Shown piece by piece: positions 9,608 through 20,143 of a stretch of 35,356 nt of DNA. The position numbers were made by a program, and so were the translations under genes. The notes below the pieces were generated by a model, which was given only the letters and a program-made list of their open reading frames with translations, was not told the DNA's origin and ran no database searches. Origin of the DNA: Lachnospiraceae bacterium (GTDB lineage: Bacteria; Bacillota; Clostridia; Lachnospirales; Lachnospiraceae); assembly GCA_024696945.1 (NCBI GenBank), contig JAILGF010000186.1, positions 1-35,356 of the forward strand, in the 5' to 3' direction. Within the stretch, counting starts at the first letter, position 1; every line of letters starts with the position of its first letter.

Positions 9608-10171
9608 ATGGATGATAATGATATAATCGACTTATACTGGAAAAGGGACCAGAAGGCAATTACATATACAACACAAAAATATGAGAGCTATTGCTATAAA
9701 ATAGCTAACAATATACTTGACAGCAGAGAGGATTCGGAGGAGTGCGTAAACGATACCTGGCTCACTGCCTGGAATGAAATGCCGCCAAAACGGCCGAATT
9801 ATCTGAAACTATTCTTGGCGAGAATTGTCAGAAACATAGCTGTAAATGTGCTGGAAGCCAGGATGGCAAAGAAGCGTTTTGGAAGAGAGACATTACTGCC
9901 ATTGGAGGAGCTATCAGAATGCGTAGGAGACGGAAAGAGTATTGAAGATGAGCTTGAAGCTAAAGAACTTGAAAATTGCATAGGAAGATTTGTTTCTGAG
10001 CTTCCTGAACGCGAAGGGAACCTCTTTACGAGAAGATATTTTTTCTCTGAAAGTATTAAAGCAATAGCAAAGGGATATGGTCTTACACCTCACAATGTTA
10101 CCGTAATCCTTGGGAGGACAAGAAGTAAGCTTAGAGAGTATCTGAAGCAGGAGGGATATTTGAATGAATAA
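9608..10171 (+). CDS. ECF-type RNA polymerase sigma factor (second, serpin-linked)
   Basis: A 187-residue ECF sigma factor. Region 2 lies in the first 80 residues (DSREDSEECVNDTWLTAW is a typical 2.2-2.4 string) and region 4 near 130-180, with a helix-turn-helix in AIAKGYGLTPHNVTVILGRT. It recruits RNA polymerase to target promoters. ATG 9608 is the first possible start in frame; no ATG, GTG or TTG occurs between the upstream stop near 9569 and it. The ribosome binding site CGGAGG is 27 bases away with a perfect palindrome between, an unusual layout. Its end overlaps the start of the serpin gene by eight bases, so the two are translationally coupled. Confidence 0.92.
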   Translation: MDDNDIIDLYWKRDQKAITYTTQKYESYCYKIANNILDSREDSEECVNDTWLTAWNEMPPKRPNYLKLFLARIVRNIAVNVLEARMAKKRFGRETLLPLEELSECVGDGKSIEDELEAKELENCIGRFVSELPEREGNLFTRRYFFSESIKAIAKGYGLTPHNVTVILGRTRSKLREYLKQEGYLNE

Positions 10172-11783
10172 CAGTGATCTATATAGAGGCATGAATGGTA
10201 TAAGTGACGAAATACTTGAGAGAAGTGAAAAAAGTTTTAAAAAGCAGGGAAATTTTCCTGCAAAATGGGGACTTATAGCAGCTGTCATACTGCTGGCGGC
10301 AATTGCAATATCGCTCATCTTGATTTTTAAGAACATCGATAAAGAATCTGAAAGTACAGATGATATAACAAACGTAGAGAAGACAGCAAACAACGAGAAT
10401 ATAAAAAATAATGATAAAATAACTAATACAGAGAAAATTGATAATAATGCGACTGAAAACAAGATAAATAATGAAATTTTGCTGGCTGACCATCAGGTAA
10501 TGGTAGCTGAATATCCGGCACAATTGATGAGACCCAAGATGGAGGATTATGAGAACGAAAACGGTGAGTTGGATTTTCATAAGTATATAGAGGCTCTCGA
10601 AAAATGGGAAAGTGATTTAAATGAAGTATACAGCCAAAACAGGGATGAAAATGAAACAAAGATTCTGGAAAACAGCAGGGCAGCACTATGGTCATTTACT
10701 AAAAAATCCCTGGGGGCTTTTTTGGATAGTGAAAATCATGAAAACAGAATTTTTTCTCCGTTAAATATATATATGGCCATGGGACTTTTGGCAGAGTCTT
10801 CGGCTGGGAACACTAGGGAACAGATTTTGGGTGCGTTGGGTATCAATAGTATTGAAGAACTTAGGCCTATGATAAAGAATACCGTGAAGCATATATACAA
10901 GGATGACGGAGCTGCAAAGACGATTCCGGCTTCATCCATATGGCTTAGGGATGACATGGAGTATAATACCGACACATTAGAGAGTCTTGCAAAGAACTAT
11001 TATACATCTTCTTTTACCGGGAAAATGGGAACGGAAGAGTATTCTAATGCTTTTCGGGCATGGTTAAACGACAGGACGGATAATCTCCTAAATGATAAGA
11101 TAAATAACCTTGAGTTAAACGATTCGGTTGTTGTGGCTTTAGCTTCAACTTTACTCTTTAGCGCAAAGTGGAATGACAGTTTTGATCCCGAACAGACCAG
11201 GAAGGATATATTCCATGCAGCGGACGGGGATATAGAATGCGATTTTATGAATCAGAATATTGATGCTCTTACATATTACTGGGGAGATCATTTTGGCGCG
11301 GTCAATATGTATTTGGGCGGTAATGATAACTATATGATGCTGATACTGCCGGATGAAGGTTATGATGTTAATGAACTGCTTAAGGATGAACAGATGCAGT
11401 CCTTTATTGAAGATAGCCAGCATTATGCTCAAAATAAGGCTCTTCAGGTAAATATATCCCTGCCTAAGTTTGATGTGGCTTCGAGTATGGATATTTCTGA
11501 AGCATTGATGAAACTTGGAGTTACTGATGCCTTTGATGACCGAGTGGCCGATTTTAGTCCACTGTTTAAAAATGGTGAAAATATATGTATAGATAAAGCA
11601 GAACATGGGGTGAGGGTCATTACTGATGAAGAGGGCGTAAAAGCAACATCTTATATGGTTTTTTTAGGCTATGGAGCGGCTTTCTTTGAAGAGAAGATGG
11701 ATTTTGTGCTCGACAGACCGTTCATATTTGTCATAAATAATAACTATGGGCCACTTTACATCGGTGTAGTGGAAAAACCTTAA
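10164..11783 (+). CDS. Membrane-anchored serpin with anti-sigma-like N-terminus
   Basis: A 539-residue protein. Residues 1-34 form a short cytoplasmic part (GISDEILERSEKSF) like the N-termini of proteins partnered with ECF sigma factors in Lachnospiraceae. One membrane segment follows (35-55), then an Asn/Lys-rich linker (60-105) and a serpin domain (about 165-539). Serpin signs are SPLNIYMAMGLLAESSAGNT, ASTLLFSAKWNDSFD, LPKFDVASSMDI, the hinge EEGVKATS (Glu489-Glu490-Gly491) and the C-terminal DRPFIFVI. Counting from the hinge puts P1-P1' at Ala505-Ala506, suggesting elastase- or subtilisin-like target proteases. The outer serpin should trap proteases; coupling to the sigma gene suggests that trapping or cleavage is signalled inward. 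The serpin call is certain, the sensor role is inference. Confidence 0.92.
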   Translation: MNNSDLYRGMNGISDEILERSEKSFKKQGNFPAKWGLIAAVILLAAIAISLILIFKNIDKESESTDDITNVEKTANNENIKNNDKITNTEKIDNNATENKINNEILLADHQVMVAEYPAQLMRPKMEDYENENGELDFHKYIEALEKWESDLNEVYSQNRDENETKILENSRAALWSFTKKSLGAFLDSENHENRIFSPLNIYMAMGLLAESSAGNTREQILGALGINSIEELRPMIKNTVKHIYKDDGAAKTIPASSIWLRDDMEYNTDTLESLAKNYYTSSFTGKMGTEEYSNAFRAWLNDRTDNLLNDKINNLELNDSVVVALASTLLFSAKWNDSFDPEQTRKDIFHAADGDIECDFMNQNIDALTYYWGDHFGAVNMYLGGNDNYMMLILPDEGYDVNELLKDEQMQSFIEDSQHYAQNKALQVNISLPKFDVASSMDISEALMKLGVTDAFDDRVADFSPLFKNGENICIDKAEHGVRVITDEEGVKATSYMVFLGYGAAFFEEKMDFVLDRPFIFVINNNYGPLYIGVVEKP

Positions 11784-13345: not shown

Positions 13346-13374
13346 TTGATAAAGAAAAGCATATCTGATAATAT
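13346..13374 (+). promoter_or_regulatory. Sigma-A-type promoter of the radical SAM operon
   Basis: TTGATA (13346-13351), 17 bp, TAATAT (13369-13374), 35 bases before ATG 13409. Confidence 0.6.
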
Positions 13375-13408: not shown

Positions 13409-14791
13409 ATGATACCTTCAAAGAGAGAGTACAATTATGTAAAAGAACATTTCAACGAGGTTCATCATACAACGGTGAATCCCGAGGGCCCCGGTGTAGT
13501 CAGGGTTCATCTGGTCCCGCCCAAATACAGCGAGAAGGATATAGGATCGAGCCTGGCGATAATAAACGGACACGATATTGTTCCGGTAAATGTTTCCTGG
13601 AGCATACTTCTTACCGCATTTATTGAAGAGGTTAATAAATACAGCGGACGTACCGTTACCGACGACGAGGTTGAAACCATACTTGACAATACCTGCCGGA
13701 TCGTTTCGAAGGTATATCCTTTGGTAGGAAAGAACCGCTTCAGAAAAGATATCATAAAGATAATGAATGCTTTTAAGCAGATTGCTTACGGCGAGAAGGT
13801 TGATGAAGAAATCGGTTACATGAGCATAGGTGAATATGCGGATAAGATGACGGCTCCTCACAGAATGGACCTCATGGTAAGCGCAATGACAAAGGATGGT
13901 ATGTGGCATTGCAATCAGAAGTGTGTTCACTGCTATGCAGCAGGCCAGGAGCAGTCTTCCGAGAAGGAACTTGTTACTGAGGCATGGAAGGAAATTATTG
14001 ATAAGTGCAGGGAGGTTAAAATTCCTCAGCTTACCTTCACGGGCGGCGAGCCTACCATGAGGGAAGACATTATAGAGCTTATAGAATATGCTAAGTGGTT
14101 CGTGACAAGACTTAATACGAACGGTATCAATCTTACGAAGGAGTTTTGTGAGAAGCTTAAGGGTGCATCCCTTGACAGCGTACAGATTACCTTCTATTCA
14201 TATAACGAAGATGTACATAATAGGCTGGTTGGAGCCCAGAGGTATTCGGATACTTTAGCCGGTATCGAAAATGCAATAGAAGCGGGGCTTAACGTGAGCA
14301 TCAATACACCGCTCTGTACTCTGAACCGTGATTATGTTGAAACATTAAGATTCTTACATGACAAGGGGATTGAGTACGTAACCTGCTCCGGACTGATTAC
14401 TACGGGAAACGCAAGGAAAGAGGAATCCGAAAACCTTCAGCTTTCAAATGCCGAGGTAAGGGAAATACTTTTGGAGGCAGTTAAGTATTGCTACGAAAAC
14501 GGTATGGAGATAAGCTTTACTTCTCCCGGATGGGTGGATGACAAGTTCTGTAAGCAGCTTGGAATTCCTACTCCGAACTGCGGTGCATGCCTCAGCAATA
14601 TGGCTATCACACCTGCCGGCAACGTTGTTCCGTGCCAGAGCTGGCTGTCGGATAAGCCGCTAGGAAATATGCTGAAGGACAAATGGAAGGATATCTGGGA
14701 GAACCCGGTTTGCAAGGAGAGAAGAGAGTTTTCAACAAAGATGAGATGTGAGTGCCCTCTTAGGATTATCAAGGGCGGAGCATCCTGCTGA
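13409..14791 (+). CDS. Radical SAM protein with SPASM-like C-terminal cysteines, probable peptide-modifying enzyme
   Basis: A 460-residue radical SAM enzyme. The cluster motif CNQKCVHC (Cys168, Cys172, Cys175) binds a 4Fe-4S cluster and SAM; FTGGEPTMRED (Gly212-Pro215) is the SAM-contact motif. C-terminal cysteines at 391, 394, VPCQSW, MRCECPLR and the very last residue 460 suggest one or more auxiliary clusters, as in SPASM enzymes that modify peptides or proteins. The first 165 residues are a separate helical domain (INGHDIVPVNVSW and following) that could bind substrate like the RRE/PqqD domains, an unproven guess. Start ATG 13409 has AAAGGAAAGG upstream. Twelve bases after the stop begins a membrane protein with a repeated Cys-Ala tail, the likely substrate. 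Confidence 0.9.
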   Translation: MIPSKREYNYVKEHFNEVHHTTVNPEGPGVVRVHLVPPKYSEKDIGSSLAIINGHDIVPVNVSWSILLTAFIEEVNKYSGRTVTDDEVETILDNTCRIVSKVYPLVGKNRFRKDIIKIMNAFKQIAYGEKVDEEIGYMSIGEYADKMTAPHRMDLMVSAMTKDGMWHCNQKCVHCYAAGQEQSSEKELVTEAWKEIIDKCREVKIPQLTFTGGEPTMREDIIELIEYAKWFVTRLNTNGINLTKEFCEKLKGASLDSVQITFYSYNEDVHNRLVGAQRYSDTLAGIENAIEAGLNVSINTPLCTLNRDYVETLRFLHDKGIEYVTCSGLITTGNARKEESENLQLSNAEVREILLEAVKYCYENGMEISFTSPGWVDDKFCKQLGIPTPNCGACLSNMAITPAGNVVPCQSWLSDKPLGNMLKDKWKDIWENPVCKERREFSTKMRCECPLRIIKGGASC

Positions 14792-14803
14792 AAGGATTAA
14801 AAA

Positions 14804-16009
14804 ATGAAAAGGATTATTAAAAGATTATCGATAGTTTGCTGCATTGTAATGGCGGTGATACTGGTAAGTCCGGTATTTTCCGTTAAAACATATGCAAAGG
14901 AACTGGATTACATACATGAATATACCATCACGGCCGAGGTAATGAACGACGCTAAGGTAAAGATGACCTACCATATCGACTGGGAGGTTCTTGATTCAAC
15001 CTCGGAAGGTCCCCTAGAGTGGGTAAAGATCGGTGTTGCAAACAAGCATGTAACGAATATTTACGGTCTTACAAGCAATATCAAGAGTATTAAATATTCT
15101 TCGGATGGCGGAAGCTACATTAGGATCGATTTTAAAAAGAATTATTACAAGGGCGACAGGGTAAGCTTTGATTTTGAGATCGTTCAGGATTATATCTATG
15201 AGATGAATAAGCTCAAGGAAGGCGAGACCGTTTATGAGTTCACTCCCGGTTGGTTCGATGACATTAAGGTCGGAAAGATGACTCTTAAATGGAAAAATGA
15301 TAAGGCTGAGAGCTGGTCACCCGCAGGGAAGGTTGACGATGGTTATCTCACTTGGGAAAAAAAGCTCGGAAAGGGTGATACCTTTACGGTTCAGATCACT
15401 TACCTGAACAGTGCTTTTAATTTCGATACCTCAAAAACGATCGTACAGCCCGAGAAGGACTATACAGGTCTGATGATGTTCTTTGTTTACGGTACGATAA
15501 TAGCATTGACCATAGTATTTACGGTTTTCTCTACATATAAGAGCAGATACAACAATACTGCAAATATGGGCGGAACCACAAAGAGGACGGTTAAGAGGAC
15601 CAAGGTTGTTTATTACTCAGCATGTCCTTCCTGCAGCGCTCCGAAAAAAGAAGGCAGCGACAACTGTGAGTACTGCGGAAGAAGCCTGATCCAGAGCGAG
15701 GAGGTACTTGAAGAAAAGGAGATAAAGGAACTGGATAAGTCCTTGCGGTCAAATAAGAACAATGAAGGACTATATCGTTTTACTGATTCATCCAATACAT
15801 ATATGAGGGTGCATGTTTCACATGTATATGTTCCTACTCCTACATCTTACGGAGCTTATCACCATGGACATAGCAGCGGCTGTGCTTGTGCATGTGCGTG
15901 CGCATGTGCCTGTGCCGGTGGCGGAAGAGCAGGATGCTCGACCAAGGACTTCTATAACACGGGACTTAAGCTGAGACAGCTGCAGCTTAAAAAGAGTGCA
16001 AAGAAATAA
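14804..16009 (+). CDS. DUF2207-like membrane protein with zinc ribbon and (Cys-Ala)6 tail, putative radical SAM substrate
   Basis: A 401-residue protein with a signal peptide (cleavage near KTYAKE, about residue 32), an outer beta-rich domain of about 190 residues resembling the N-terminal part of DUF2207 proteins, and a membrane segment (about 222-244). A cytoplasmic part follows with a zinc ribbon (CPSC then CEYC). Then come a Tyr/His-rich stretch and six Cys-Ala repeats (Cys360 to Ala371), then GGGRAGC (Cys378) and a basic tail. The repeat uses TGT and TGC with all four Ala codons, so it is kept by selection on protein, not by DNA slippage. Twelve bases after the radical SAM gene, it is probably that enzyme's substrate. 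A terminator follows. Function unknown. Confidence 0.85.
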   Translation: MKRIIKRLSIVCCIVMAVILVSPVFSVKTYAKELDYIHEYTITAEVMNDAKVKMTYHIDWEVLDSTSEGPLEWVKIGVANKHVTNIYGLTSNIKSIKYSSDGGSYIRIDFKKNYYKGDRVSFDFEIVQDYIYEMNKLKEGETVYEFTPGWFDDIKVGKMTLKWKNDKAESWSPAGKVDDGYLTWEKKLGKGDTFTVQITYLNSAFNFDTSKTIVQPEKDYTGLMMFFVYGTIIALTIVFTVFSTYKSRYNNTANMGGTTKRTVKRTKVVYYSACPSCSAPKKEGSDNCEYCGRSLIQSEEVLEEKEIKELDKSLRSNKNNEGLYRFTDSSNTYMRVHVSHVYVPTPTSYGAYHHGHSSGCACACACACACAGGGRAGCSTKDFYNTGLKLRQLQLKKSAKK

Positions 16010-16019
16010 CCTAAAGACA

Positions 16020-16056
16020 GGGACCGGTTCTAAGGCACAGAACCGGCCCTTTTTTC
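16020..16056 (+). terminator. Rho-independent terminator of the radical SAM operon
   Basis: GGGACCGGTTCT (16020-16031) pairs with AGAACCGGCCC (16039-16049) with one bulged A, followed by a run of T to 16056. Confidence 0.92.
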
Positions 16057-16101: not shown

Positions 16102-16137
16102 GATAAATTGGTTTATTGTGGAGGCATGAAGAGAGTC

Positions 16138-17553
16138 ATGAAATTATATAAGAAGGATCCTCAATTTTATAAGAGTGTATTCAAGCTGGCACTGCCTATA
16201 GCGTTCCAAAGCCTTATAACAACGGGCGTAAATATGCTGGACAACATTATGGTGGGTCAGCTGCAGGACGAAAAGATAACGGCGGTTGCTCAGGCAAACG
16301 TATTTATTGGAATATATCATATTTTATGTATGGGTCTCGGTATGGGAGCATCAGTGCTTGTTTCACGTTACTGGGGAATGAAGAATTCCGAGAACGGAAA
16401 TAAGGCTGAGGCGGAACATGCACTGAAGCAGACAGTAACATTAATGCTGAGACTTGCCATGGGACTGGCTGCACTGTTTGCAATAGCTACAGCTGTTATG
16501 CCAAAGGCTATTATGTCAATATATACCGACAACCCGGTTATTAAAGAGTTCGGTGCAAATTACTTTAAGTACTCAATACCTACATATTTCTTCCTGGGAG
16601 CATCACTGGTTACAACGATAGTTCTCAGAAGCGTGGGTCAGGTTAAGCTTCCGATGTTCGTTTCCATAGGTGCATTCTTCGTAAATATGGGCGCAAACCA
16701 TACCTTTATTTTCGGTCATTTCGGAGCTCCGAGAATGGAAGAGCAGGGTGCAGCATTAGGAACTCTTATCGCAAGAATTTTTGAAGCCTCCTGCATTATG
16801 ATCTATTTCCTTTGTATTGACAAGAAGATCGGTTTCAAGGTCAAGGACATGCTCCTAAAGACCAGGAATCTTATCGGAGAGTATTTCAGAATTTGTATTC
16901 CGGTACTTATAAGCGACGGTATTTTGGCTATAGGAAACAGTACAGTAGCAAGCGTTATCGGTAAGCTGAGCGATCAGTTCGCGGCAGCAAATTCCATCAC
17001 AGCAACCACTCAGCAGCTCAGTACCGTAATGATACAGGGCGTATGTCAGGCCGGAGCTATTGTTACCGGTCAGACCCTTGGAAGCGGCGGAAAGGAAAAG
17101 ACACAGGAGCAGGGCTGGCTGTTCCTCGGACTTGGATTTGCACTCGGTGCCGTATCTGCCGGAATATTGATGATCATCTGCAATCCTATCATCAACAGTT
17201 ATACCGGCGCAGGTGAAGAGGTTAAGTCGATTGCAAGGGATCTGATGAATGCAATAAGCCTGATAATTGTTTTCCAGGCAACCAACAGTATTATGACGAA
17301 GGGCGTGCTGCGTGGAGGCGGCGATACCAAGATGCTGATGATCGCCGACAATATCTTCCTGTGGGCTTTGTCAATCCCGCTGGGTTATTTAGCAGGTTAT
17401 ATTCTGAAACTTGATGTGTTCTGGGTATATTTCTTCCTAAAGATCGACCAGATCACAAAGACCATATGGTGCGTGATCAGACTCCGCAGCGGTAAGTGGA
17501 TTAAGAAGATTACCACAGGAAAGAATTCGACTGAGCTTGCTGTAAAGAACTGA
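16138..17553 (+). CDS. MATE family efflux transporter
   Basis: About 471 residues with roughly twelve hydrophobic segments in two similar halves. Family strings include LPIAFQSLITTGVNMLDNIM near the N-terminus, AQANVFIGIYHILCMGLGMG, ANSITATTQQLSTVMIQGVCQAG and KGVLRGGGDTKM. MATE proteins export organic cations, drugs or metabolites against a sodium or proton gradient. The start is uncertain: ATG 16126 sits only one base from GGAGG, so I prefer ATG 16138, which has that GGAGG 13 bases upstream and AGAGAG nearer. It has its own promoter and is followed 55 bases later by the cellulase gene. Substrate unknown; family assignment strong. Confidence 0.93.
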   Translation: MKLYKKDPQFYKSVFKLALPIAFQSLITTGVNMLDNIMVGQLQDEKITAVAQANVFIGIYHILCMGLGMGASVLVSRYWGMKNSENGNKAEAEHALKQTVTLMLRLAMGLAALFAIATAVMPKAIMSIYTDNPVIKEFGANYFKYSIPTYFFLGASLVTTIVLRSVGQVKLPMFVSIGAFFVNMGANHTFIFGHFGAPRMEEQGAALGTLIARIFEASCIMIYFLCIDKKIGFKVKDMLLKTRNLIGEYFRICIPVLISDGILAIGNSTVASVIGKLSDQFAAANSITATTQQLSTVMIQGVCQAGAIVTGQTLGSGGKEKTQEQGWLFLGLGFALGAVSAGILMIICNPIINSYTGAGEEVKSIARDLMNAISLIIVFQATNSIMTKGVLRGGGDTKMLMIADNIFLWALSIPLGYLAGYILKLDVFWVYFFLKIDQITKTIWCVIRLRSGKWIKKITTGKNSTELAVKN

Positions 17554-17608: not shown

Positions 17609-20143
17609 ATGGCTGATAATGAAAAGACAACAAAAAGCGGTAACGATAAGAAAAAGTACATTATTATCGCCATAGCAGCGGTAGTTGTTCTTGCTTTGGG
17701 TATTGTTATCGGTGTGGTTATAGGCGGTTCGGGGAAGAAATCGAACGATGGACAGACAAACCCTTCAGGCAGCGTTGAAACACTTGTCGATAACTCTCAG
17801 AATAAGAATTCGGATAGTACACAGAACAATTCACAGGATGAAAATCAAAACAGTATTGGTTATGAAAACCAAGACAATAAGAATACATCTTCAGGTGATT
17901 CACAAGGTAACGATAACAGTTATATAGATAATAACAATTCAAGTGATACAAGTAACGATGATGGCCCTTATACGACACCTGTAGAAAATAGCCATTATGA
18001 GGATGAAAACAATGGAAATACGTCCGATAACGGCAAAAATGACCAGGACAATGCTTCTGATAATACCGATAAGTCAGAGAATACTGACAAGTCCGATAAG
18101 GGAAATGCATCAGATGATGGCGGCAAGTCAGATAAAAATGATAAATCGGATAAAGGCAACACTTCCGAAAAAAATGATGGATCAGACAAGAATGACAAAA
18201 CCGACAAGAACGATAACGGAAATAACGGTAAATCTGATGACAATAACGGAAGTTCAGATAACGGCAGTATTGTAGATAATACTGATAAAAACGGTAAATC
18301 CGATGATAAGAATACCAATAATGATGGTAACAACGGTTCATCCGATGATAAAAATACCGATAACAACGACAAGGATTCTGATAACAAGAATTCACCAGAT
18401 GACAAAAACACCACAAAGGGCGGTTATGTTCTGACATATACGGTTGACAACTCTTGGGCAGACGGAAGCACCAACATGTTCGGTGTTCAGCTGGGAATTA
18501 CAAACAACACTGATAGCGCAGTTAAGGGCTGGAAGCTTGTTCTTGATATTGAAGGATTGGCTTCTGTCAGTGGTTGGAACGGAACATTCACAACAGACAA
18601 GAATATAATGACCATTACCGATGCCGGATATAACAGCGATATCTATGCAAGCGGAACGATAGTTATAGGCTGCAATCTCGGAACCACCGCAAGTAAGGTT
18701 AATATCAAATCTGCAAAGCTGAACGGAACAGCCATGACTATAGTCAGCGGCAAGGTTGACCAGAACGATCCGGGACTCAAGAACGAGGACAAGAACGGAA
18801 ACGGTGGCAACAATGGTGGCAACAATGGCGGAAATAACGGAGGTAACAACGGCGGAAACGGTTCCGGTTCCGATAAACAGGGACAGGACCTGATCGACGA
18901 GATAAAGGAAAACACCAAGGGCAAGAAGGGTGATGACTGGCTCTATACCGACGGAAAGAACATCATAGACAAGGACGGAAAGAAGGTTTGGATCACAGGT
19001 CTTAACTGGTTCGGCTACAACACAGGAACCAATACCTTCGATGGATTGTGGAACAGCCAGCTGGCACCTACTGTAAAGGCTATTGCAGACCACGGCTTCA
19101 ATCTTATACGTGTTCCTATTTCAGCACAGCTTATTAATCAGTGGTCGGAGGGAGAGTATCCGAAGGCAAATTACAACAACGCTTACAATACAGAGCTTAA
19201 CAGCATGAACAGCTTGGAGATATTCGATTACTTCTTAGCACTTGCGGAAGAAAACGGTATCAAGGTAATGCCCGATATCCATTCTGCTGAGACCAATGCT
19301 TCAGGCCATAATGTTAACCTTTGGTACACCGATAAAGTTAAGGTTAACGATTACTATCATGCGTTAGAGTGGATGGCAGCCAGGTATAAGGACAATGACA
19401 CCATCATCGCTTTTGACCTTAAGAACGAGCCTCATGGAAAGCCTTATGAGGGCGACGGTGCAGCCATCTGGAACGATTCAAAGAAGGCCAACAACTGGAA
19501 ATATGTGGCAGAAACAGCCGCAGCAAAGGTACTTGCAAAGAACCCGAACCTTCTGATCATGGTAGAGGGAATTGAAATCTACCCTATTGACATTAAGAAG
19601 AATTCGGATTATAGTTCTACAAACGATAAAGATTATTACTTTAACTGGTGGGGCGGTAACTTAAGAGGTGTTGCCGATTACCCTGTAGATCTTGGCAAGT
19701 ATCAGAACAAGCTGGTTTACTCGCCTCATGACTATGGTCCTACGGTTTACGAGCAGCCATGGTTCGAAGGCAAATATACATATGATAGTCTTATGAAGGA
19801 CTGCTGGCATGACAACTGGTTCTTTATTTACGAGAAAAACATTGCTCCTCTGCTCATCGGTGAGTGGGGCGGATTCATGAGGGAGCCCAACCTTACATGG
19901 ATGACATACATGAGGAAGCTTATCAAGACATATCATCTGAATCACACCTTCTGGTGCCTCAATGCGAACTCGGGAGATACGGGCGGATTGCTTCTGGATG
20001 ATTTCACCACTTGGGATACTGAAAAGTACAACTTCGTGAAAGAGGTACTCTGGCAGCAGAACGGAAAGTTCGTAGGACTTGACCACGAAGTACCGCTCGG
20101 AAAGAACGGAATTACCCTGAAAGAAGCAAAAGGAAGCCTTTGA
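17609..20143 (+). CDS. Membrane-anchored endo-beta-1,4-glucanase, CBM2-like plus GH5 (subfamily 1-like)
   Basis: 844 residues. Residues 1-16 are charged, then an uncleaved-looking membrane anchor (17-41) is followed by about 225 residues of Asp/Asn/Lys/Ser/Gly-rich low complexity. A CBM2-like domain (about 271-373, with GWKLVLDI, SGWNGTF and SDIYASGTIVIGCNLG), a Gly-Asn linker and a GH5 catalytic domain (about 443-835) complete it. Catalytic acid/base Glu607 lies in DLKNEPHG and nucleophile Glu752 in IGEWGG. EGIEIYP, FNWWGGNLRGV, YSPHDYGPTVY and SGDTGGLL resemble the GH5_1 endoglucanase of Acidothermus. It should cut cellulose while tethered to the cell by its N-terminus. The long hydrophilic linker probably spans the wall. 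GGGAG precedes ATG 17609. Confidence 0.95.
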   Translation: MADNEKTTKSGNDKKKYIIIAIAAVVVLALGIVIGVVIGGSGKKSNDGQTNPSGSVETLVDNSQNKNSDSTQNNSQDENQNSIGYENQDNKNTSSGDSQGNDNSYIDNNNSSDTSNDDGPYTTPVENSHYEDENNGNTSDNGKNDQDNASDNTDKSENTDKSDKGNASDDGGKSDKNDKSDKGNTSEKNDGSDKNDKTDKNDNGNNGKSDDNNGSSDNGSIVDNTDKNGKSDDKNTNNDGNNGSSDDKNTDNNDKDSDNKNSPDDKNTTKGGYVLTYTVDNSWADGSTNMFGVQLGITNNTDSAVKGWKLVLDIEGLASVSGWNGTFTTDKNIMTITDAGYNSDIYASGTIVIGCNLGTTASKVNIKSAKLNGTAMTIVSGKVDQNDPGLKNEDKNGNGGNNGGNNGGNNGGNNGGNGSGSDKQGQDLIDEIKENTKGKKGDDWLYTDGKNIIDKDGKKVWITGLNWFGYNTGTNTFDGLWNSQLAPTVKAIADHGFNLIRVPISAQLINQWSEGEYPKANYNNAYNTELNSMNSLEIFDYFLALAEENGIKVMPDIHSAETNASGHNVNLWYTDKVKVNDYYHALEWMAARYKDNDTIIAFDLKNEPHGKPYEGDGAAIWNDSKKANNWKYVAETAAAKVLAKNPNLLIMVEGIEIYPIDIKKNSDYSSTNDKDYYFNWWGGNLRGVADYPVDLGKYQNKLVYSPHDYGPTVYEQPWFEGKYTYDSLMKDCWHDNWFFIYEKNIAPLLIGEWGGFMREPNLTWMTYMRKLIKTYHLNHTFWCLNANSGDTGGLLLDDFTTWDTEKYNFVKEVLWQQNGKFVGLDHEVPLGKNGITLKEAKGSL

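Follow-up and report, generated by a model that had tools for sequence, protein, structure and literature searches.

A stretch of 35,356 nucleotides from a Lachnospiraceae bacterium (contig JAILGF010000186.1; hereafter the window) contains two adjacent genes on the forward strand, one encoding a radical S-adenosylmethionine (SAM) enzyme and the other a membrane protein that carries a Cys-Ala repeat in its C-terminal tail. The two form a real two-gene system, which is carried by gut and rumen bacteria. We propose that the enzyme docks on a follower segment behind the repeat and its GGGRAGC motif and crosslinks the repeat itself, most likely through S-C(alpha) thioethers between Cys and Ala; on balance, we regard this as probable. 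The coordinates of the features discussed below are collected in Table 1.

The membrane protein was found at 60 loci in named genomes. The enzyme gene lay directly upstream on the same strand at all 58 uncut loci, and the remaining two (L041, L061) were cut at a contig edge. The median intergenic distance at 48 loci was −4 bases, with 45 within 50 bases, as measured from start codons chosen by script. In the window the gap is 12 bases (14792-14803), as an earlier note made from the DNA letters of the window had stated. Three genome samples, which overlap in at least the window's own genome, were searched with thresholds of E 1e-60 for the enzyme and 1e-10 or 1e-8 for the membrane protein. The enzyme was present in 17 of 24 genomes of the genus sample, 25 of 348 of the family sample and 5 of 291 of the class sample, and the membrane protein was in the same 17, 25 and 5 genomes; in the class sample, one search used the distant homologue L123 as its query. 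The earlier note had proposed this co-occurrence as a check. When the genomes with the enzyme were taken as the starting point, the tail motif stood beside it at all 24 family loci besides that of the window. We found no orphan tail: the last 48 residues, a query that missed two true carriers, matched 23 of the 348 family genomes, all of them among the 25. A tail common without the enzyme, named in the note as the contrary case, was searched for in the three samples and at the 58 uncut loci and was not found. In the window's own genome the membrane protein occurs once in full; two further matches are partial and weak, and they lack the tail.

Some pairs were broken by contig ends. In G196 the enzyme and tail genes fell on separate contigs (C122 and C115), with the enzyme gene lying 399 bases from a contig end; in G646 and G649 the tail gene was cut by the contig end; and in G235 the membrane protein gene ran off its contig, while P0241, a longer protein identical over those 331 residues, ends with the tail. 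One in-frame stop, from decay or assembly error, was seen in each of three enzyme genes (L007; G235, C79 13010-14326; G651, C48 4684-6024). The enzyme alignment leaves out L007 because of this stop, L015 (a 352-aa frame), and L046 and L048 (contig edges); the identity, tree and co-divergence analyses used 48 of the 60 loci and the window.

The pair occurs in records titled as two phyla. L022, L045 and L057, from records titled as the Coriobacteriia families Eggerthellaceae, Atopobiaceae and Coriobacteriaceae, hold the complete pair at a G+C content of 58-59%. In the enzyme tree, which was rooted for drawing only, these three form one supported group amid Bacillota, and a transfer of the pair between the phyla is therefore likely.

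The protein in the window ends with (CA)6-GGGRAGC-STKDFYNT and further residues. The earlier note had placed six Cys-Ala units and GGGRAGC at the very C-terminus; the units and the motif are there, but 23 residues lie beyond it, and the first eight of these (STKDFYNT) are strongly conserved. The pattern TGYGCNTGYGCNTGYGC matched four times in the window, all within the repeat, and 0 times in 100 shuffles; a chance repeat was ruled out by this result and by the conservation of the tail. In 73 aligned proteins, C366-A-C-A-C370, G374-R-A-G-C378, K381 and F383 were invariant, and the variable parts were the membrane helix and the hinge, with mean consensus fractions of 0.29 and 0.49. Mean pairwise identity among 49 proteins was 97% for the tail core, 49% for the outer domain and 65% for the enzyme. 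The core was present once at each of the 60 named loci and was spelled by 58 distinct DNA sequences, indicating that selection acts on the protein sequence, as the note had argued from the mixed Cys and Ala codons, which are indeed mixed. Because the pattern behind this count lets only two core residues vary (G or S), the count speaks for DNA variety only, and residue conservation is taken from the alignment.

The repeat varies in length. Five unbroken CA units precede GG (or SS) in 150 of 191 distinct matching proteins, with a range of 1 to 6. A second tail form, ...SSCACACACASSGRAGCSVKDFF or SVKEFF, was found at 7 of the 60 loci, and a distant branch, with an outer domain 25-28% identical and with other linkers, still ends in CACACACAGGGRVGCSERGYQVLHWL or near it. 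A one-residue departure within the repeat occurred in 2 of 120 close proteins (P0025, P0027), and 7 of 30 distant proteins lacked the strict motif. Of these seven, P0249, P0253 and P0254 are short proteins that end ahead of the tail, P0246 ends within it, no tail is read in P0248, GGGKVGC replaces the strict motif in P0266, and P0270 is a TPM-domain protein without a Cys tail. The locus L122 (5782-7709, G241) has two tandem tail-protein genes ahead of a single enzyme gene; in the repeat of the second, a Tyr replaces one Cys (CACACAYACACA), offering a natural test of which Cys residues matter.

The enzyme belongs to the radical SAM superfamily (PF04055, 90.3 bits, cut-off 29.5), and translation confirmed the CxxxCxxC motif that had been noted at Cys168-175 (C168-x3-C172-x2-C175). 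It also matched the SPASM family PF13186 at 35.7 bits (cut-off 21.5). The SPASM seven-Cys motif reads CX9-15GX4C-CX2CX5CX3C-C. The enzyme has CX12GX4C (C391-C409), with C394, and past C409 just C435 and C449 are conserved; the canonical seven-Cys pattern is not conserved across the 69 rows of the enzyme alignment, which refines the SPASM type named in the earlier note. The RumMC form of the motif is given in PMC8172795. A Cys is the last enzyme residue, as the note had it (Cys460), but is conserved in just 6 of 69 rows. The kinship with peptide maturases that the note had suspected was supported: among solved structures the best profile match was the peptide maturase SkfB (1.8e-16, residues 166-431), which also came first in a Foldseek search with the enzyme model and tied for first in Z. 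The fold matched CteB, anSME and EpeE as well. The SkfB sactipeptide maturase model TIGR04403 gave 64.5 bits, under its cut-off of 300, and none of the 25 NCBIfam models listed, of 55 that matched, reached its cut-off, which set aside the other radical SAM families. Prokaryotic viperin (NF038283, 59.3 bits against a cut-off of 180) matched the barrel only; a role in defence was likewise rejected, the PADLOC model pVip (64.6 bits) matching the enzyme barrel only and no model matching the tail protein.

The N-terminal part of the enzyme is predicted to form a domain like the recognition element of ribosomally synthesized and post-translationally modified peptide (RiPP) systems. As defined in PMC12710340, this element is a winged-helix unit with a strict beta3-alpha3 order. 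The predicted model has strands at 31-36, 48-52 and 56-60 followed by helices at 62-78, 85-102 and 108-126, in that order, with an extra strand (19-23) ahead of them. Only the SuiB and SkfB fold alignments, from residue 31, speak for the winged-helix packing; the CteB alignment starts at residue 145 and lends this domain no support. Residues 1-160 gave no match to the PqqD-like family PF05402 at E up to 10, and such domains diverge strongly in sequence.

The membrane protein is predicted to consist of a signal or anchor helix, an outer beta domain, one membrane helix, a zinc ribbon and a cytoplasmic tail. This predicted topology puts the tail inside, in agreement with the earlier note. Tail proteins measured 309-488 aa in 67 of 70 frames; two of the exceptions were cut, and one had 649 aa. 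No Pfam or NCBIfam model matched the protein, and searches of its profile against solved structures by sequence returned weak matches only (best E 0.0055). The predicted fold of the outer domain resembles ribophorin I/OST1 and the N-terminal domain of M1 aminopeptidases and is distantly like DUF2207 (PF09972), whose members likewise have an outer N-terminal domain. The protein in the window did not match PF09972 (cut-off 24.4 bits), the relatives L054, P0267 and P0266 scored 14.6, 13.3 and 22.3 bits, all below the cut-off, and no DUF2207 protein was found in the window's own genome at E 0.01. We know of no DUF2207 protein with a CA tail. A phage origin was also considered and rejected: a single scan of viral contigs, made with the alignment of tail proteins, gave 600 pattern matches and 0 confirmed relatives.

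The earlier note had the enzyme modify the anchored tail on the cytoplasmic side instead of making a free peptide, a reading that is partly supported. We infer that the enzyme takes the tail as its substrate and docks on the follower, that it forms thioethers of the S-C(alpha) type and that the modified tail remains on the membrane protein. The predicted recognition domain would dock on the conserved segment past GRAGC in the cytoplasmic tail, and the enzyme would then crosslink the Cys-Ala repeat, most likely by thioethers that join the sulfur of Cys to the alpha-carbon of Ala. An N-terminal domain that reads the segment past GRAGC should diverge in step with it. Over 49 pairs, the distances of enzyme residues 31-130 and tail residues 379-393 correlated at 0.61. 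The partial correlation was 0.50 after removal of the barrel, the SPASM region, the outer domain and the zinc-ribbon region, and 0 of 500 permutations reached this value; the other four parts gave partial values of −0.09 to 0.09. The segment past GRAGC, which the earlier note had left out of its discussion, thus looks like the recognition site of the enzyme, and the co-divergence supports docking on the follower. As for the chemistry, the tail core is composed of Cys, Ala, Gly and one Arg, with Ser or His ahead of it in many members. Because it offers mainly Ala and Gly as partners, an S-C(alpha) link to Ala is more plausible than other thioethers. A functional group is present on the ranthionine acceptors described to date (PMC8326336), PapB fails to link Cys to an Ala substituted for Asp, and ruminococcin C1 contains an S-C(alpha) bond between Cys5 and Ala12 (PMC8172795).

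Some observations weigh against this proposal. The six second-tail-form members of the data set form one fully supported enzyme clade, and without them the partial value of the N-terminal domain falls to 0.20 (2 of 500 permutations), while the barrel gives 0.11 (44 of 500). Because of this drop, much of the co-divergence between domain and follower is a single event. In addition, AlbA is reported to reject Ala at the positions of its own acceptors (PMC8172795).

Since the neighbourhoods lack a shared protease or exporter and conservation extends to the rest of the membrane protein, the modified tail is most likely not released. It would serve a sensor or scaffold that faces outward as its inner end, stiff or able to bind metal. 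More tentatively, in what would be a new class of radical SAM modification, the (Cys-Ala)n track may be zipped into a thioether ladder that is kept permanently as a rigid or metal-binding peptide cofactor on a membrane receptor, with a C-terminal follower, not a leader, being recognised.

The enzyme might instead modify the tail by another radical reaction, such as a ranthionine-type S-C(beta) link, Ala epimerisation, or conversion of Cys to formylglycine or some other product. The pairing evidence fits such reactions equally, and the enzyme fold also resembles CteB, anSME and EpeE; the lead of SkfB in both the profile and the Foldseek comparisons speaks for the sactipeptide type. Ranthionine formation is at odds with core neighbours that are mainly Ala and Gly, where known acceptors have a functional group (PMC8326336 and PMC8172795), and a single formylglycine site fails to explain a run of several CA units. 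We consider this group of reactions a serious but rather unlikely alternative to Cys-Ala thioethers.

Two further readings are less likely. The tail could be an unmodified CxC metal-binding (metallothionein-like) or iron-sulfur element, while the enzyme acts in the same pathway on a different substrate that was not seen. The CxC repeats do share the inner part of the protein with a zinc-ribbon motif, but the strict co-occurrence and adjacency with a peptide-maturase-type enzyme, the lack of an alternative substrate gene shared by the neighbourhoods among frames of at least 70 aa, and non-Cys residues (G374, R375, A376, G377, K381, F383) as invariant as the Cys residues make this improbable. 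Still less probable, to the point of being hardly credible, is that the membrane protein is a carrier from which a housekeeping protease releases the modified tail as a free peptide in the classical RiPP manner. A tail predicted to be disordered (350-376, with a predicted local distance difference test score below 50) and joined through a variable hinge would suit such release; a membrane protein of 300-490 aa with a conserved outer domain would be an odd leader, its zinc ribbon and inner beta segment are conserved as well, and the neighbourhoods share no protease or exporter.

These neighbourhoods, surveyed at 72 loci for frames of 70 aa or more, have no common third gene; the top families occurred at 17, 13 and 10 loci, and one set of related loci accounted for many of these. 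The long tail proteins and the missing third gene differ from a classical RiPP cluster, in which a short precursor has a protease and an exporter nearby. ABC-transporter-like ATPases, named by eye from sequence, were present at 8 of 72 loci and within three frames of a tail gene in 3 of 70 cases. In the window, a MATE transporter gene downstream (16123-17553) and a decarboxylase gene upstream were considered as parts of the system and rejected, with relatives at 1 and 0 of the 72 related loci, respectively.

Among known systems, SuiB (streptide synthase, PDB 5v1s/5v1t), 14% identical to the enzyme, joins Lys to Trp by a carbon-carbon bond within a short peptide. The ranthipeptide maturases CteB and PapB with their SCIFF peptides likewise place a radical SAM/SPASM enzyme by a Cys-rich substrate and are common in Clostridia; they differ in having short free peptide substrates with Asp, Thr, Asn and Glu as acceptors, and the tail protein matched none of the NCBIfam families, SCIFF or ranthipeptide precursors included. 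QhpD (quinohemoprotein amine dehydrogenase) works on a soluble subunit that is exported, as opposed to the tail of a membrane protein, and Cys is linked to Asp or Glu, unlike in the Cys-Ala core here. QhpD installs thioethers in a protein subunit and not in a free peptide (PMC8326336, PMC11002830), and is the nearest precedent for a protein substrate. SkfB (sporulation killing factor sactisynthase, PDB 6efn) is 19% identical to the enzyme and has the same parts, namely an N-terminal recognition domain, a radical SAM barrel and a C-terminal auxiliary-cluster region; unlike the pair here, its substrate is a short peptide clustered with putative protease and export genes (PMC8172795).

A literature search, with subscription papers and preprints mostly outside its scope, found no paper pairing 'radical SAM' with 'GGGRAGC' and no account of such a two-gene system. 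The kind of enzyme is known; the kind of substrate, the inner tail of a membrane protein in a two-gene unit, is new as far as the literature was searched. Radical SAM peptide maturases have mostly been studied as makers of free peptides, whereas here such an enzyme is tied to a large membrane protein. If the tail is crosslinked, it would be an unusual, permanently anchored target for radical SAM chemistry, and this chemistry would also serve to build lasting components of membrane proteins. With its two genes, the system is compact enough for direct testing.

Table 1. Features of the two-gene locus and of its predicted products (positions in the window; residue numbers refer to the respective protein)
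Feature	Position	Strand	Remark
Radical SAM/SPASM-domain enzyme gene	13409..14791	+	ATG at 13409, 460 aa
Predicted RiPP-recognition-element-like domain, enzyme residues 31-130	13499..13798	+	Three strands then three helices, predicted model
CxxxCxxC (C168, C172, C175), radical SAM [4Fe-4S] site	13910..13933	+	Conserved in 69/69 rows
SPASM/twitch-type C-terminal region, enzyme residues 391-449	14579..14755	+	Conserved C391, C394, C409, C435, C449
Gene of tail-bearing membrane protein	14804..16009	+	401 aa
Predicted signal peptide or signal anchor, residues 1-32	14804..14899	+	
Predicted outer beta domain, residues 33-210	14900..15433	+	
Predicted membrane helix, residues 221-252	15464..15559	+	
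Zinc-ribbon-like motif (C274, C277, C288, C291)	15623..15676	+	Invariant in 73 rows
(Cys-Ala)6 repeat, residues 360-371, proposed modified core	15881..15916	+	
GGGRAGC, residues 372-378	15917..15937	+	G374-R-A-G-C378 invariant in 73 rows
Follower segment STKDFYNTGLKLRQLQL, residues 379-395, proposed enzyme docking site	15938..15988	+	
Promoter-like site TTGATA-17-TAATAT, TG ahead of −10	13346..13374	+	5' of the pair; weak
Terminator-like hairpin then T run	16024..16046	+	3' of the membrane protein gene

Promoter-like sites numbered nine against a shuffle mean of 6.4, which is no evidence on its own, and terminator-like hairpins numbered three in the region against a shuffle mean of 2.2, about the same frequency as in shuffled sequence.

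Two other loci in the window were observed. At 9608-11783 (+), a gene for an ECF-like sigma factor (Sigma70_r2 over cut-off) overlaps the start of a gene whose 539-aa product has a short N-terminus, is hydrophobic near residues 36-56 and contains a serpin domain at 178-539 (E 6.7e-58); a protease inhibitor thus stands at the place where an anti-sigma factor is expected. At 17609-20143 (+), the translation reads as a large, cellulase-like protein that is anchored in the membrane and has a long linker rich in Asn/Asp/Lys/Ser/Gly.
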